Source: Clostridiales bacterium (lineage in GTDB: Bacteria > Bacillota > Clostridia > Lachnospirales > Lachnospiraceae). Taken from it: a stretch of 64,000 bases of DNA. The stretch covers positions 1 to 64,000 of the forward strand of contig JAMPHY010000014.1 in assembly GCA_023663185.1 (NCBI GenBank), in the 5' to 3' direction. The position numbers and the translations under genes are program-made. Below the pieces are notes generated by a model. That model was not told where the DNA came from. It saw only the letters and a program-made list of their open reading frames with translations, and did not search any database. Shown piece after piece: positions 56,955-64,000 of this stretch (the stretch's first letter is position 1; each line of letters begins with the position of its first letter).

Positions 56955-58649
56955 TTACCCAATCAACACTCTTTTTCCCTCAAACGCAAAACCATATTTC
57001 TTTATCCGTTTCGCCGCAATCCCTTTTTCTAACAAGCTCTCCTCATACCGCTTCTCTTCTATCTGGTCTAACGCCGCTTGCACAGTATCCTCAAGCGTCT
57101 TCTCATCTTCCGGATCATGCACCTTAAATTCCATAATCACTGCATTATCTTTTTCATGATATGGCTCCAGCATGACATCATATCTTCCGAACCCACTTTC
57201 CCTGTTCGACGTAACAGCATATCTGTCTGCAAGTTCTACCATCAATCCCAGCACAAATCCATGGTAAAACCGCTCCGGTTCTGAACTTTTTGAAGGCTGG
57301 TGTCCTGTATCAAAATAGCTGAACGTATCCAAAGCAACTTTATTCATATAGACATTCATCGCCTTTTTATTGTCCTGTAGCAATGCCTTCACAAAGTCAT
57401 TATAATCTGAAATATTTCTGGAAAACCATCCCCGTATCATACCCCTGAACATAATGTTCACTTCACGGTTAGTCAGCGCCAGCTCATATTTTGGTTCCGT
57501 CACAGTATATTCTGGATCATATTCCTCATAGCTTAAGACCTTAAGATAACCGCTTGCCAGAAGCAGGCTCCAGATAGCATTTTCATCACCATCAAGCTGA
57601 TTATAGACAATCTGCTCATCAATGGGTACAAACAAATGCTCCCCCCGCATCAAGCACTCAAAAGCTTCCTTTACTCCTCTGCTGCTTTCTCTTATCTGCT
57701 TCCCCACAAGGCTGTTGGAGCTTGTATTTGCCCAGTATGCCGCCAGTTTTCCTGTATCCAGAAAATTCAATATCGACCACGGATTATAGATATCACTCCA
57801 CTTTCCAAACATGAAACCGTCATACCAGTTCTTCACATCCTGTTTTCTATCACCCATTCCATATTCATCTAACGCGGTAAACACCTCTTCTTCCGTAAAG
57901 CCAAAGGATGTACCGTATTCATCGGAAGTAGTCGTCACGACTTTCAGGTTATTCAAATCAGAAAATATGGATTCCTTGCTAACCCTTGTTATGCCTGTCA
58001 TAATGGCACGTTCCAGCCATGGGTTTGTCTTAAATGCAGAGTTGAACAGGCTTCTGGTAAATGCCGTCAGTTCCTGCCAGTAACCGTTTACATAGGCTTC
58101 CTGCATCGGGGTGTCATATTCGTCCAGAAGAATGATAACTTTTTTCCCATGATATCTGGACAGAAAATCCGATAATTTATAAATAGAAAATGTCGCGTCC
58201 ACATCCATCATATCTGTGGATATACTTAAAAAAAACTTCTTTTCCTCTTCCGCCAAAAGACCGCTGTCTAATAAAAATCTATTCTTATGATACAATTCTG
58301 TAAGCAACTGATTTATCCTCTGCTTTGTCTGCTCATATGTTTTTTCTTTCACACCTGCAAAAGACAGGCTGATAACAGGATATGTCCCCTGCAACGCCCG
58401 GTATTTCTCTTCCTGCCAGATGGATAGATTCTCAAACAAATCTCCGCGTCCTGCATACTTTACAGAAAAAAACTGCTCTGTCATGCTCATGGTCAACGTT
58501 TTCCCAAAACGTCTAGGTCTGGTTATCAGCGTCACTTCATCTCTACTTTCCCACCATTCTTTTAAGAAAGCTGTTTTATCTATATAGAAACATCCGCTCT
58601 CAATTACCTTGCTAAAATCCTGAATTCCGATTCCTACTGTTCTTGCCAT
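56955..58649 (-). CDS. AAA-ATPase-like protein with C-terminal PD-(D/E)XK nuclease domain
   Basis: 564 residues. The N-terminal part (about 1-290) is PF09820-like: IGIQDFSKVIESGCFYIDKTAFLKEWW, the variant Walker A RPRRFGKTLTMSM near 43 and VIILLDEYDTPMQEA near 168 (Walker B). The C-terminal part (about 400-560) is a PDDEXK_9 domain with YDVMLEPYHEKDNAVIMEFKVHDPE, which holds the D...ExK residues. Such proteins are common in Bacteroidetes and Clostridia in many copies and are of unknown function; a mobile or defence role is often proposed. A strong ribosome binding site AAGGAG precedes the ATG. Confidence 0.85.
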   Translation of the reverse strand: MARTVGIGIQDFSKVIESGCFYIDKTAFLKEWWESRDEVTLITRPRRFGKTLTMSMTEQFFSVKYAGRGDLFENLSIWQEEKYRALQGTYPVISLSFAGVKEKTYEQTKQRINQLLTELYHKNRFLLDSGLLAEEEKKFFLSISTDMMDVDATFSIYKLSDFLSRYHGKKVIILLDEYDTPMQEAYVNGYWQELTAFTRSLFNSAFKTNPWLERAIMTGITRVSKESIFSDLNNLKVVTTTSDEYGTSFGFTEEEVFTALDEYGMGDRKQDVKNWYDGFMFGKWSDIYNPWSILNFLDTGKLAAYWANTSSNSLVGKQIRESSRGVKEAFECLMRGEHLFVPIDEQIVYNQLDGDENAIWSLLLASGYLKVLSYEEYDPEYTVTEPKYELALTNREVNIMFRGMIRGWFSRNISDYNDFVKALLQDNKKAMNVYMNKVALDTFSYFDTGHQPSKSSEPERFYHGFVLGLMVELADRYAVTSNRESGFGRYDVMLEPYHEKDNAVIMEFKVHDPEDEKTLEDTVQAALDQIEEKRYEESLLEKGIAAKRIKKYGFAFEGKRVLIG

Positions 58650-58841
58650 AAGCTTCTCCTTATTTTATACTGAGGCTGAGCTTATTATATCATAAAAAAA
58701 ATAACTAGCCAAGCGCAGTACCGCGATTATGTAATTTTACTCCAACATGCTGCACAGAGGGTGTTCGTGGGACAAAAGAAAGAGATTATTAAGCAAAAGG
58801 CGGAAATCCCTCAGTTGAACCAAAGACCATTTTTATCCCAC

Positions 58842-60293
58842 TCATTTATAGTTTACAATCGTCTCAATAGAGTAGAGTTTTACATCTTTCCTTTCGGCTT
58901 CCTTCACAATCCTATCATCGAATCCGCTTTCAGAGAACAAAGCATAATAAAATTTTGCTCCCTGTTTTTGAGGATTCAGCTTTGCTATTGTATCCAGATA
59001 TTCTGCATAACTGAACGGACTGTTTTTAAATTTACATTCTCCGACTAAATATTCCTTTGCGTCCCTGCTAATTCCCAGCAGGTCGATTTCTGTTTCAGTA
59101 GTCCGCAATCCATTCTTCGCATTCTCGTCCCGCACAGTCGTCTTGCCCAGCCATCGCCCCATTTTCGCATAGCGGAAAGGAAGCGCATCCGCCTTCTGCA
59201 TTTTCCTGACAAATTCCCTGCACACATCTTCAAAAGCAGACGCAGCAAATTCATGCAGAGCCGGTTCTATTATATACTCATACACACCGTCTACATCGCC
59301 CTCTTCGAGCTGTGAATAATTTGCGAACCCGAAAGCATACCAAAATCGGAAAAAATTATCCGTCAGCCGATACATTCCTCTGTTTAAATTTGCCTTTTCT
59401 TTCATTCCTGCATCAATGGAAAATTCACGTTCCACTATACCAAGTTCAAGCAGATTTTTAAGATATACACTGGTCTTGGACGTATCTTCTACAAGCGATT
59501 TCTGACTAATATCATTTAACTTTGTATTACCAAGCGCAACAGCTTCAATGATGGAGTTGTAAATCGGCGTCTCCCTCAGCTCCTGACGGAGCAGGAAATC
59601 CGTCTCGCTGTAAAGGACACAGCCCTTCGTCAAAATGTTCTGCTTAATATTTTCTTTGACAGATAAATCAGCAGCCCATTGGTTCAGATAATGGGGAATG
59701 CCGCCAAGCACCGCATAAGCAAGCACATTATCACGAGGAGAATAGTCTGGAAAGAACTTCATGGCATCGTAAAATCCCATTTCCTTCATCCTATAGACTC
59801 CCGTTGCCCTTCCATAAAGAGGATTCTTTTCTGCTAATAGTTCTTTTTCAATAAAACTCATTGCGCTTCCGCAGAGGATAATCATTACATTACTATTCCG
59901 CAGCTCTGCGTCCCATAGATTTTGCAGAATAGACGGAATGCTTCTGTTCCCACGGCACATATATGGGAACTCATCTATTATAACCAGCTTCTTATTACTT
60001 CCATACGGCAAGTCCTGAATAGCGCGAAACGCTTTTTCCCAATCTGAAAATTCTGTGATATACTGTCTTGCCGGAATATCTTCCTTAAGAAGCTGCCCTG
60101 AAAATCTGGCAAGCTGCACACGATCCGTACTTTGCGTACAGGAAAAGAAAATGTGTGGCTTATCCTTGCTGAATTCCCGAAGGGTTTCGGTCTTTCCGAT
60201 ACGCCGCCTGCCATAGAGGACTATAAGCTGCCCCTTCTTTTCCTTATATTTATCATTCAAAAACTGCAGTTCTGCCTCCCTGCCTATAAACAT
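58842..60293 (-). CDS. ATP-binding protein with DUF234 domain
   Basis: 483 residues. ATPase domain of the archaeal ATPase type with FIGREAELQFLN start, Walker A VLYGRRRIGKTETL near 25 and KLVIIDEFPYM near 102 (Walker B), then a winged-helix part and a C-terminal DUF234 domain (about 320-470) with REFVRKMQKADALPF and EIDLLGISRDAKEYLVGECKFK, which has the D...ExK pattern of PD-(D/E)XK nucleases. The function is unknown. It is 106 bases downstream of the DUF4143 ATPase gene, in the same direction. Confidence 0.83.
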   Translation of the reverse strand: MFIGREAELQFLNDKYKEKKGQLIVLYGRRRIGKTETLREFSKDKPHIFFSCTQSTDRVQLARFSGQLLKEDIPARQYITEFSDWEKAFRAIQDLPYGSNKKLVIIDEFPYMCRGNRSIPSILQNLWDAELRNSNVMIILCGSAMSFIEKELLAEKNPLYGRATGVYRMKEMGFYDAMKFFPDYSPRDNVLAYAVLGGIPHYLNQWAADLSVKENIKQNILTKGCVLYSETDFLLRQELRETPIYNSIIEAVALGNTKLNDISQKSLVEDTSKTSVYLKNLLELGIVEREFSIDAGMKEKANLNRGMYRLTDNFFRFWYAFGFANYSQLEEGDVDGVYEYIIEPALHEFAASAFEDVCREFVRKMQKADALPFRYAKMGRWLGKTTVRDENAKNGLRTTETEIDLLGISRDAKEYLVGECKFKNSPFSYAEYLDTIAKLNPQKQGAKFYYALFSESGFDDRIVKEAERKDVKLYSIETIVNYK

Positions 60294-60399
60294 AATGCGC
60301 CTCCGTATATAATAATATCTAATCGTGATTTACCAAATCTTGATTTGATATTATTATATGCGGAAGCGCTGAAAATATCAAGAAGTTCTTGCATGTTTA

Positions 60400-61764
60400 T
60401 TACAGGAACATTGCCATATAGACGGGCAGATGGAGAATCCCATCCTTTATCGCCAAATCCTTTGTATAGAGAATATAAGAATTACCAATCCTTGAAGAAA
60501 ACTTATTCCGGAACTTATCGAGCGAGGAATGTGAGCGGTATCTGCCTGATTTTACCTCTATAGGCGCAAGCTTCTTTTTTTCAGTAATCAGGAAATCAAT
60601 CTCCATATGGTTTTCCCTGTGCTTTGCATCATTTCGGGAATAAAAATACAGTCTGTGTCCATTATAGCGGAGCATCTGTGCCACAATGTTTTCCAGAATC
60701 ATGCCTTCATTGATCTCTAATTTATCAAACAGGACAGCCTTATACAAATCGTTCTCAACAAAAGGCACATCCATAAAGGTATGTGTAATCAGCAGTCCCG
60801 TATCACCCATATAGCATTTCTGTGTAGTATTGTCCTCGCTGAGCGCCAGCCCTACATTCGGATCGGCTGCATTCAGGCATGCATTAGCAATCATCGCTTC
60901 ATGAAGCCAGATAAAAGAGTCCTCATAGCTTCTGAACCGTACCTGTTTGGAAATGGATGAAAGCCTGTATTTTTTTTCCTTTCTGGAAAGCTGTGCTGGA
61001 ATACCGTCAAAGATGGCAAAAACCTTATCCTCATACCCCGCGGCAAATTTAGAGACGTCGTCACGGTAAAGTTTCAAAATACGACGTTTTACCGCATCCA
61101 CAGTCTCAAAACTCTTAGTTTTAACATATTCCGTCACCGCCTGCGGCATACCTCCCACAAGAATATACTGCCGAAAATCGTTCATTATTTTTCTGTGCAG
61201 GGCGTCACCGAGCGGTAATCTTTTATCAAAACATTGCCTGAGTAGCGGAACGGTAGCATTATCGCCCATCGCCCATAGAAACTCCTCGAAATCAAGGGGA
61301 AACATTGAGATATGTTCCTCCTCGGATGGAATGATGATATCCTGAACGTTTTTCTTCAATCTAATGAGCGAACCGGTTTCAATAAAATCATAGCGTCCAT
61401 CGGCGACAAAATATTTGATGAGCTGCCTCGCTCTCGGATATTGCTGTACCTCGTCAAAAATAATGACAGACTCACGCTCATACAGCGTCGTAGAATAAAA
61501 CGCCGATAGTTTCGCAAAAAACAAATCAAGATTATAACTGTCATTGACAAACAAATCCAAAATATCCTGCGGCGCGTTACCGAAGTCAATGATGATGCAG
61601 CTTTTATATTCTGCTTGGGCAAATCTCCCCACGAGATAGCTTTTACCAACCCGCCTTGCACCATCAAGCATAATAGCAGTTTCTCCCTTGCTTTGTTTTT
61701 TCCAGTTCAGCAGTTTATCATAAATTTTACGACGAAGAACGATATCTCCATTTTTATTTTTCAT
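60400..61764 (-). CDS. ATP-binding protein with AAA_14 and DUF4143 domains
   Basis: 454 residues from the ATG at 61764, behind AAGGGGTGG. AAA_14 ATPase part with AIMLDGARRVGKSYLVGRFA near 30-49 and SVIIFDEVQQYP near 100, then a linker with GGMPQAV and a C-terminal DUF4143 domain with EIDFLITEKKKLAPIEVKSG, again with the D...ExK nuclease-like pattern. Widespread, function unknown. The frame continues upstream to 61917, but that stretch is the promoter with 33-bp repeats, not coding. Confidence 0.85.
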   Translation of the reverse strand: MKNKNGDIVLRRKIYDKLLNWKKQSKGETAIMLDGARRVGKSYLVGRFAQAEYKSCIIIDFGNAPQDILDLFVNDSYNLDLFFAKLSAFYSTTLYERESVIIFDEVQQYPRARQLIKYFVADGRYDFIETGSLIRLKKNVQDIIIPSEEEHISMFPLDFEEFLWAMGDNATVPLLRQCFDKRLPLGDALHRKIMNDFRQYILVGGMPQAVTEYVKTKSFETVDAVKRRILKLYRDDVSKFAAGYEDKVFAIFDGIPAQLSRKEKKYRLSSISKQVRFRSYEDSFIWLHEAMIANACLNAADPNVGLALSEDNTTQKCYMGDTGLLITHTFMDVPFVENDLYKAVLFDKLEINEGMILENIVAQMLRYNGHRLYFYSRNDAKHRENHMEIDFLITEKKKLAPIEVKSGRYRSHSSLDKFRNKFSSRIGNSYILYTKDLAIKDGILHLPVYMAMFL

Positions 61765-61801
61765 AAAACCACCCCTTGACAGCTTATTCGGCATATACAA
61801 T

Positions 61802-61830
61802 ATTGTACTGTATGTTTCACGAAAAAGCAA
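61802..61830 (-). promoter_or_regulatory. Promoter of the DUF4143 ATPase gene
   Basis: TTGCTT (61825-61830), 17 bases, TACAAT (61802-61807) on the minus strand. The -35 box is inside the first of three 33-bp direct repeats. Confidence 0.65.
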
Positions 61831-61916
61831 GTTCGTAAAAGTGTGTTCTGCACGAAAAAGCAAATTTACAAAGGTATAATCTGCACAAAAAAGCAAGTTT
61901 ATAGTTGGCACACTCA
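61818..61916. repeat. Three 33-bp direct repeats upstream of the DUF4143 ATPase gene
   Basis: Units start at 61818, 61851 and 61884, each beginning CACGAAAAAGCAAGTT or a close variant; the first two match over most of 33 bases, the third mainly over its first 20. They fill the gap between the LRR coding segment and the ATPase gene and include the -35 box. 33 bases equal three helical turns, so they could be operator sites. Confidence 0.75.
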
Positions 61917-62633
61917 CTGGTGCGTATATATTATTTCAAAAGACGGTTCCCCGTAGAGAGAAATCAATTTTTCCATCTGTTCTTGACCTTTAACGCTCAT
62001 TTCCACCACCGCCAGATTCGGCATCGTGAAAAGCGGAGTCAAATCGCCCATTACGCTTTGTTCCATACTTATCAATACGATATCTTCCCTTCCTTCCAAC
62101 GCTGAAATATCCCAAATCTGCGCCTCGCAAAGATACAGTTCCTTAATATATGCCGTATTTTTAAGAAATTCTAAATCCCTCTGTCCCAAAGCCCTGACTC
62201 TTAGGATATTTATATATAAGCCGTCCAGATATTTCCATGCGTCAGAATCATTATTGATATCCAGAAAATTATAATCCCTCACGGTCCCAATGGGGCTTGC
62301 GGCATAGCTGCCTGTATTGGCAAGATCCAGCTCCTTAAGCATAGGCAGTGTGCTGATAGTTTCAATATCTGTCAGGGGGTTATCCAAAAGTTTCAAGGTT
62401 TCAAGCGTCCTGATATTCGCCAGCGGAGAAATATCATGTATATTGTTAGACCTCAGTTCTACCGACTGCAGATATTCCAGCTCCTTTAAGGGCGATATAT
62501 CCTCAATGAAATTACCCCCTATATAGACGTATTGGAGATTTGGCATGCTCTTTAAATCTGTCAGTTCCTTGATAGTTCCCTTGATTCGCTGGGAGCTGCT
62601 ATACCATTTGCCCCCCCCCAAGCTCATTATCAT
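61914..62633 (-). CDS. Leucine-rich repeat segment, out of frame with the upstream kinase
   Basis: About 239 codons open from 62633. Leucine-rich repeats of the internalin type are seen: LTDLKSMPNLQYVYIGGNFIEDISPL, LKELEYLQSVELRSNNIHDISPL, LANIRTLETLKLLDNPLTDIETI, then more degenerate units to the end at residue 239. No signal peptide or ribosome binding site is found for this frame. One base fewer in the run of nine G at 62611-62619 would join it in frame to the kinase, giving a kinase with an outer LRR sensor. I regard it as the C-terminal half of that protein. Whether the break is real, phase-variable or a sequencing error cannot be decided here. Confidence 0.75.
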   Translation of the reverse strand: MIMSLGGGKWYSSSQRIKGTIKELTDLKSMPNLQYVYIGGNFIEDISPLKELEYLQSVELRSNNIHDISPLANIRTLETLKLLDNPLTDIETISTLPMLKELDLANTGSYAASPIGTVRDYNFLDINNDSDAWKYLDGLYINILRVRALGQRDLEFLKNTAYIKELYLCEAQIWDISALEGREDIVLISMEQSVMGDLTPLFTMPNLAVVEMSVKGQEQMEKLISLYGEPSFEIIYTHQ

Positions 62634-63678
62634 AAAAAGAATCGCTATCCGTATACACCTCTTCTCCCTGTATGTATATTCCGGTAACAGCCTCCAAGTC
62701 TGCAGTCGTTATAATTCCTTCCGGCTTATCCAGTGACATTCTTACCGCTTCTTCTATCAGTGGTTCTTTAAATACATATGCCCTATTATGCAGCGACTGC
62801 AGATATCCAGTTCCTGCTGCTGTCATACCTGATATCAGCAGTATTATGAGGGAAGCAACGGCAATGAGCCAGTTACGCTTACGGCGTCTGTAGCCGTCGG
62901 TTGTACGGTACAAAGCCTTGAGAAGTGCATTATCATCTTTATAGCGTTTATCCGGTGTAAATTCGCAGCATTTCGCCGCTATCCGCCCCATCTTTGTCAT
63001 AGGATTCTTTATCGGTTTCGCCGCGCCGGTAAGCAGCCATGATATCACAATTCCGAAGGAATATATGTCTGAACGTATATCCGTCTGCATAAAGCCGTAC
63101 TGTTCCGGCGGCGCAAAGTTTTCAGTACCGCAGAAAACCGTATCAACATTTTCCCCTGCCTTATAAATACGGCTGATTCCGAAATCAATCAGCGCTATGC
63201 TTCCATCTTCTTTCATAATAATATTTTCCGGTTTAATATCACGATGTATAATAACAGGTTCAGAGTCATGAAGAAGCTGCATTGCCTTGACAAGTTTAAT
63301 TGCCAAATCGGTTAGGGCAGTCTCAGACAAAGGATTATTTCGCACATATTCATTCAGGGATACACCTTCTATGTATTCCCGCAGGATGCAATAATAATTT
63401 TCGTTTTTATATTCCCCGATATAGCGCGGAATAGCTTCATTTTTCATACTTAAGAACCGCGCCGGTTCCCCTGTATTATACTGCGGACTGTTTGCTGTAT
63501 AGCATTTCGCCACATACTTTATATCGGTTTTCTTCTGCCCTACAAGCAGGGTTTCGCATTCTTCCGTGCTGCTTAAGCATTCCAATATATTATAAATCTT
63601 TGTAAATTCGTCAGGCAGACTATTCTCATAACTATTATCATAGTCGTAGTACGCCTGAAATTCCCTGATTACGTCCAT
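62599..63678 (-). CDS. Transmembrane serine/threonine protein kinase, cut short at a poly-G run
   Basis: 359 residues from the ATG at 63678, behind GAGGTAGAG. Eukaryote-like kinase: YVAKCY near 55 (VAIK lysine), IIHRDIKPENIIM near 145 (HRD), LIDFGISR near 165 (DFG), GTENFAPPEQYG near 185 and SDIYSFGIVISWL near 205. The glycine-rich loop is degenerate. A membrane segment follows (about 272-293), then a short outer part that ends DNELGGGQMV because of a frame change in the run of nine G. The LRR half follows in another frame. It would signal from the surface to the linked HTH protein, which is inference. Confidence 0.85.
   Translation of the reverse strand: MDVIREFQAYYDYDNSYENSLPDEFTKIYNILECLSSTEECETLLVGQKKTDIKYVAKCYTANSPQYNTGEPARFLSMKNEAIPRYIGEYKNENYYCILREYIEGVSLNEYVRNNPLSETALTDLAIKLVKAMQLLHDSEPVIIHRDIKPENIIMKEDGSIALIDFGISRIYKAGENVDTVFCGTENFAPPEQYGFMQTDIRSDIYSFGIVISWLLTGAAKPIKNPMTKMGRIAAKCCEFTPDKRYKDDNALLKALYRTTDGYRRRKRNWLIAVASLIILLISGMTAAGTGYLQSLHNRAYVFKEPLIEEAVRMSLDKPEGIITTADLEAVTGIYIQGEEVYTDSDSFYDNELGGGQMV
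62611..62619 (-). repeat. Run of nine G at the kinase-LRR junction
   Basis: Nine consecutive G on the coding strand. With eight G the kinase frame reads on through GGG GGG GGC AAA TGG into the leucine-rich repeats; with nine it stops 15 bases later at TAG. Confidence 0.95.
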
Positions 63679-63688
63679 ATACTCTACC

Positions 63689-64000
63689 TCAATTTTCCCC
63701 AAGCAGCGGAATATTAATGGATTCCAATAGTTCCTGCACTTCCATTACACTCATTCCACGAGATATCCCAAACATACATGCTGCATCTCTCTCAAACTTA
63801 ACATAAAGCATACTTTTCCCAGCAAGCTTTAGTAACGTCTGCGTCTCATCAAGCGACAGCCCCATCCCCAATGAAAGCTGTATCAGCTTATCTCTGGACG
63901 GATTGCGCCTACCGTTGAAAATCTGATGTCCATAAGCCCTCTCAATCTGTGCATTACGAATGACATCGCTTGGAGTATACCCCCGCTCTTCACACAATTT
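63689..64000 (-). CDS. HTH (XRE-like) protein, N-terminus outside the window
   Basis: 103 residues visible; the frame is open to the window edge, so the start is probably beyond 64000. Helix-turn-helix region about 8-45 with TPSDVIRNAQIERAYGHQIFNG and NPSRDKLIQLSLGMGLSLDET, similar to Cro/C1-type regulators, followed by a small domain with SMLYVKFERDAACMFGISRG. The stop codon overlaps the ribosome binding site of the kinase gene (TGAGGTAGAG), so the two are translationally coupled. This HTH-kinase pair recurs in Clostridia; the function is unknown. Confidence 0.75.
   Translation of the reverse strand, partial: KLCEERGYTPSDVIRNAQIERAYGHQIFNGRRNPSRDKLIQLSLGMGLSLDETQTLLKLAGKSMLYVKFERDAACMFGISRGMSVMEVQELLESINIPLLGEN

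Follow-up and report, generated by a model that had tools for sequence, protein, structure and literature searches.

One bacterial gene, encoding a transmembrane Ser/Thr kinase with an outer leucine-rich repeat (LRR) sensor, is interrupted by a run of nine G in the window, the whole stretch of 64,000 nucleotides analysed here. The locus is probably a homopolymer contingency receptor-kinase locus, caught in a sensor-less state and belonging to a genus-wide repertoire of such tracts. This reading draws on an orthologue fused across eight G in the closest relative found (G007, of the same genus), dN/dS ratios, a hump in the length distribution of G/C runs, genes split at such tracts and the presence of both nine-base runs of the genome in HTH-paired kinases, together with an excess of hydrophobic segments among tract genes and split pieces that match consecutive parts of one Pfam domain. 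The first-pass annotation had suggested a phase-variable receptor kinase; the part of this that holds is a single gene with a slippage-type tract, in frame in G007 and out of frame here, while reversible switching is what we infer. Beyond that suggestion, many such tracts occur in the genome and the genus, often in exported or surface-modifying genes, and several of these genes are split. The features concerned are as follows.

63689..64000, minus strand: XRE-type HTH gene directly upstream of the kinase, cut by the window end and continuing to contig position 64132 (locus L003, 5690-6133)
62602..63678, minus strand: first frame, Ser/Thr kinase with membrane segment and short outer stub, 359 aa from the ATG, stop at 62599-62601
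62812..62868, minus strand: single hydrophobic (membrane) segment LIAVASLIILLISGMTAAG, found by hydropathy, with coordinates derived from residues 271-289
62611..62619, minus strand: G9 tract of the coding strand, C9 when read on the plus strand, within the overlap of the kinase and LRR frames
61914..62633, minus strand: LRR sensor frame, one base off the kinase frame, 239 aa
Contig C25, locus L004, 3690-5223: the other G/C run of nine in the genome, splitting a second HTH-paired membrane Ser/Thr kinase

The arrangement first noted, a kinase frame stopping just past nine G and an LRR frame continuing in another frame, is confirmed by the open reading frames and by Pfam. On the minus strand, the kinase frame starts at an ATG at 63678 or a TTG at 63702 and closes three codons past the G run (...LGGGQMV, then TAG at 62599-62601). 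It matches Pkinase (E 6e-31), and the second frame matches LRR_4 over three stretches (E 3e-15). The HRDIKPEN, DFG and APPE motifs are intact in the kinase frame, which also has one hydrophobic segment preceded on the kinase side by RRRKRN; the HRD, DFG and APE-type motifs with a membrane segment are those of a Hanks-type transmembrane Ser/Thr kinase. The LRR frame had been described as lacking start signals. In the letter this does not stand, as in-frame ATGs are found at its very start (MIMS...), before the run; in substance it does, because these ATGs lie within the kinase gene with no ribosome-binding site seen upstream by eye, and the frame has no segment above the hydropathy threshold. 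Other identities were tried and rejected: a PASTA kinase (PknB/Stk1), scoring 105.9 bits against an equivalog cut-off of 450 and over the kinase part only; an anti-phage defence kinase (MAD6, PD-T4-6, Stk2), the PADLOC matches (best 25 of 35 families) being confined to the kinase region; and the NCBIfam internalin and LegK1 models, with scores far under their cut-offs. A search of viral contigs with the LRR half found no relative.

Relatives agree with the proposal that the two frames form one protein when the tract is in frame. In G007, kinase, membrane segment and LRR share one open frame of 609 codons, and the orthologue carries eight G (in frame) where the window has nine (out of frame); amino-acid identity between the two is 79% in the kinase part and 74% in the LRR part. 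Four more distant relatives are likewise fused, namely G004, with a frame of 582 codons that lacks the G run, and G025, G072 and G060, with frames of 640, 659 and 655 codons in which the LRR part is visible in translations and alignment. Both halves of the split window chain are matched within one chain in G007 and G004, and separate kinase and LRR genes are absent from the five relatives examined. The in-frame and out-of-frame tract lengths are thus seen between species only, at 74-79% amino-acid identity. Both halves are under purifying selection: against G007, dN/dS (Nei-Gojobori) is 0.189 over the 345 kinase codons and 0.182 over the 231 LRR codons compared, which means that the LRR part has not been dead for long. 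Given the fused relatives and the matching selection, the kinase and LRR frames are one gene.

With the tract in frame, this gene would yield one protein of about 590-600 aa, with an inner kinase, one membrane pass and an outer LRR sensor. Replication slippage on the poly-G tract would shift the LRR in and out of frame, presumably reversibly. The assembled copy would represent the OFF state, in which kinase, membrane anchor and some 70 outer residues are made and the LRR sensor is absent. The switch would take away the sensor rather than the catalytic part and leave the kinase blind to its ligand; since the catalytic part survives, OFF would mean "blind" rather than "absent". The locus would then be one of 36 G/C tracts of eight or nine bases that serve together as a bet-hedging repertoire, and many of these lie in exported or surface-modifying genes.

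A run of nine G is found at only two places in the 3.83 Mb host genome. Maximal G/C runs of at least eight bases number 36 (34 of eight, two of nine) and those of exactly seven number 11, so eight-base runs outnumber seven-base ones threefold and form a hump rather than a falling series. A first-order Markov chain predicts 38.6 runs of at least eight and 9.3 of at least nine; the observed total of 36 does not exceed this expectation and was counted against the contingency reading. Rarity and total count were dropped as evidence, the Markov estimate being equal or higher. The chain overstates long runs, because window runs of three, four, five and six bases number 627, 111, 19 and 3, a roughly sixfold drop per base; extrapolation of this fall gives about one run of nine and about five of eight in the genome. 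The departure from chance lies in the hump at eight and not in the overall count. Codon arithmetic was ruled out as its explanation, since in intact genes with G8 on the sense strand the run begins in all three codon phases (5, 5 and 15 of 25), which makes eight a property of the tract. Two marks of contingency loci, a long G/C tract in a coding frame and an unusual length spectrum, are found together.

Of the 36 runs, 26 lie in open genes, six split a gene, two are at a gene edge and two are without a clear gene. Among coding runs of at least seven bases, G/C runs split a gene in 10 of 40 cases and A/T runs in none of 47 (Fisher p 2e-4), or in 9 of 39 (p 5e-4) if the doubtful locus L117 is left out; 111 of 3440 random positions were classed as split. 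These calls depend on the rule used, L065 being split under an earlier rule limited to the G strand and open under later ones. By length, G/C splits amount to four of eight runs of seven, four of 30 of eight and both of nine, and the A/T control comprises 39 runs of seven, eight of eight and none of nine. The contrast rests on the runs of seven (4/8 vs 0/39, p 4e-4), as the A/T control is thin at eight and above (6/32 vs 0/8, p 0.32). One G7 split falls within a TupA-like ATP-grasp Pfam domain, the pieces matching profile positions 1-66 and then 71-241, and another within a GtrII glucosyltransferase domain (1-70, then 77-316). Two splits are in Acyl_transf_3 genes, the first piece being matched in both, and further ones affect a radical-SAM gene, a BspA-type LRR gene and, with a match that stays under the Pfam cut-off, a sulfatase-like gene. 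At L117 (around position 1017) a G7 lies by eye at the overlap of ATPase-like and RloB-like frames; these are probably two adjacent genes and not one split gene.

The same counts bear on a sequencing or assembly error, by which the true run would be in frame, the gene intact and switching absent. This is unlikely, if by no means negligible: a single base separates the frames, G007 has eight G, 34 of the 36 host runs of at least eight are of that length, and database G-tract lengths can be wrong. A warning on annotated G-tract lengths by the authors of a Bifidobacterium study (PMC9187656, partial text) applies to the window run too. However, coding A/T runs of seven and eight split no gene, which renders a general homopolymer indel problem unlikely at these lengths, although it argues against a general error and not a G/C-specific one, and with only eight A/T runs of at least eight the comparison at that length is the one with p 0.32. 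Runs of seven also split genes (four of eight coding, one doubtful), so departures go both ways.

A fixed pseudogene, formed by a real and irreversible frameshift with the LRR part now decaying, is improbable. The frame is indeed broken in the assembled copy, but apart from the shift neither half is interrupted and the LRR half is constrained about as strongly as the kinase half; since the divergence from G007 may mostly predate the break, that ratio would also fit a very recent loss. Programmed or stochastic slippage of RNA polymerase or ribosome, giving short and fused proteins from one allele, would suit a G9 at the overlap of two open, conserved frames but is highly improbable, as G007 encodes the fusion directly with G8.

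For the contingency reading, the second run of nine offers a parallel, in that the two G9 runs of the genome each interrupt an HTH-paired membrane Ser/Thr kinase. On contig C25 the run breaks the kinase domain itself, at the conserved APPEQ motif, and a homologous HTH gene adjoins. The downstream part of this kinase has matches in 23 other genomes of 77 (E up to 1e-20); the frame holding the best match is open over 497-556 codons in 21 genomes and over 382 and 416 codons in two. Conservation of the tract itself was rejected for this kinase, the long C run being absent at the site from all 11 relative loci inspected, a point against the contingency reading.

Families were scanned for 20 of the 26 open tract genes of the host genome. 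They include acyltransferases, methyltransferases, solute-binding proteins, CotH kinases, a chemotaxis receptor and a GH20 hydrolase, as well as an ABC ATPase, a citrate-lyase-ligase-like protein and a response regulator; two are without a family. Host tract genes with a predicted hydrophobic segment number 20 of 32, against 16 of 59 background genes (p 0.0015), the background being taken from one genomic region only, that of the window. The tract repertoire is thus enriched in exported or surface genes, as in contingency systems, relative to that one region. In the tract genes of relatives the proportion is 36 of 72, lower than in the host genome, which was likewise weighed against the contingency reading. 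The coding strand carries the run as G, not as C, in 30 of 32 host genes and in 63 of 72 genes of relatives.

Long tracts characterise the genus more than the rest of the family. At least ten overlapping G9 words occur in 60 of 77 genus genomes (median 25) against 52 of 394 other family genomes (median 1); the host genome has only two such words and four genus genomes have none. Sampling of relatives took at most one locus per genome and scan, plus regions of three genomes, and left out tracts close to N or at most 400 bases from a locus end. The 103 further tracts so obtained comprise 54 open, 18 split, 12 at an edge and 19 without a clear gene; one counted as open (L210) has a stop at the run. 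At least one of the splits, that at L104, is doubtful, with the likely gene on the opposite strand. In these genomes G/C runs of at least eight split a gene in 18 of 72 cases and A/T runs of at least seven in 5 of 89 (p 6e-4), against 158 of 3276 random positions; limited to at least eight bases, the comparison is 18/72 vs 0/14 (p 0.035).

In the host genome the tract is typically of eight bases, and the next base after the 36 runs is C in 24, A in 10 and T in two. In the stretches of G061 that were read, tracts are mostly of ten and are followed by T in 35 of 42. Modal tract length and flanking base are species-specific. At L135 (G061, C2:143600-146000) a short sequence occurs twice, once ahead of a tract of 9 G and once ahead of one of 11 G, and the two copies flank runs of N, which looks as if the assembly had broken at a variable tract. 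MutS1 is over its cut-off in 74 of the 77 genus genomes, the host included, and the other three are 66-68% complete, so loss of mismatch repair as the source of tract instability is not supported; presence of MutS1 in the host was counted against the contingency reading. A broader and tentative proposal is that of a genus-wide poly-G contingency system in presumably gut-dwelling, Lachnospiraceae-like bacteria, in which each species has its own tract length (eight in the host, about ten in G061) and its own flanks, operating despite intact MutS and having HTH-paired receptor kinases among its targets. Single cells would then randomly switch their ability to sense as well as their surface.

Random on/off switching by G tracts is described in mucosal pathogens, and Campylobacter jejuni has many poly-G contingency loci per genome. 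Examples such as cgtB, with 8 or 9 G, are surface-modifying genes switched by slippage (PMC6437147, partial text). Unlike Campylobacter, the present host belongs to another phylum and bears tracts also in a chemotaxis receptor, solute-binding proteins and receptor Ser/Thr kinases. BvgS of Bordetella pertussis is a histidine kinase. As in the window, one extra base in a C/G homopolymer (C6/C7) puts this sensor kinase gene out of frame, and C7 truncates BvgS to a non-functional form (PMC1891110, partial text). The window Ser/Thr kinase, in another host group, would instead retain its catalytic domain, the outer LRR sensor being the only part lost. On/off switching by G tracts is also described in bifidobacterial pili: in Bifidobacterium breve bbr_0113 and bbr_1889 one surface protein is divided into two frames by a G tract, maximum depth sequencing served to study replication slippage, and a survey gives one or two tract-bearing pilus clusters in B. 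breve and B. dentium (PMC9187656, partial text). Among Gram-positive gut commensals in the literature examined this is the closest parallel studied, with a G tract between frames, but it concerns a pilin and not a signalling protein.

In architecture the fused protein recalls two known receptor types. Plant LRR receptor-like kinases have the LRR outside, the kinase inside and one membrane pass; the resemblance is of architecture only and the order is opposite, the kinase here being N-terminal and the LRR C-terminal. PknB is a membrane Ser/Thr kinase with a C-terminal outer sensor, a plan shared by the window protein, which has LRR in place of PASTA and is paired with an HTH gene. On homopolymeric or slipped-strand phase variation in Lachnospiraceae, the narrower searches gave only PMC6437147 (partial text), where the tract is in C. 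jejuni, and among the other matches listed no title concerned this group; the part of PMC2831843 seen mentions Clostridia once, in its methods. Matches listed for bacterial Ser/Thr kinases with outer LRRs were mostly plant papers. Homopolymer-switched sensor kinases are hence known (bvgS), and it is this kinase type and host group that are new within the literature searched.

If the genus, presumably of gut habitat, switches dozens of loci, a single assembly could not tell the strain-level behaviour of anaerobic gut bacteria, including surface glycans, chemotaxis, nutrient binding and signalling, and some metagenomic "pseudogenes" at G-runs would be switch states. Loss of the sensor alone would also offer a clean comparison, between cells of one culture, for the ligand of an LRR receptor kinase and the role of its HTH partner.

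This partner, the upstream HTH protein, is likely the output regulator of the kinase. The Pfam HTH matches of the window gene are under the gathering score and no NCBIfam family was assigned. With a profile made from five HTH neighbours, two of which (L039, L318) belong to the searched set, homologues were found at 16 of 21 genus kinase loci and at 70 of a further 80 loci in Clostridia, Anaerolineae, Actinobacteria and other groups, lying upstream on the kinase's strand in 54 of the 70. The 80 loci are the best 80 of 586 relatives, headed by a Clostridiales MAG with 52% identity and including many Lachnospiraceae MAGs. A two-gene module of XRE-type HTH and membrane Ser/Thr kinase (L238-L317 and the genus loci) thereby extends over Clostridia, Anaerolineae, Actinobacteria and other groups. 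G007 has the same gene order, with HTH gene and kinase standing just downstream of a cluster read as hrcA-grpE-dnaK-dnaJ. Directly downstream of the LRR frame, at 56955-61917 on the minus strand, three ATPase-type genes lie in a row (AAA_14/DUF4143, ATPase_2/DUF234 and one that by eye is AAA-ATPase-like), and G007 has a different gene at this position.
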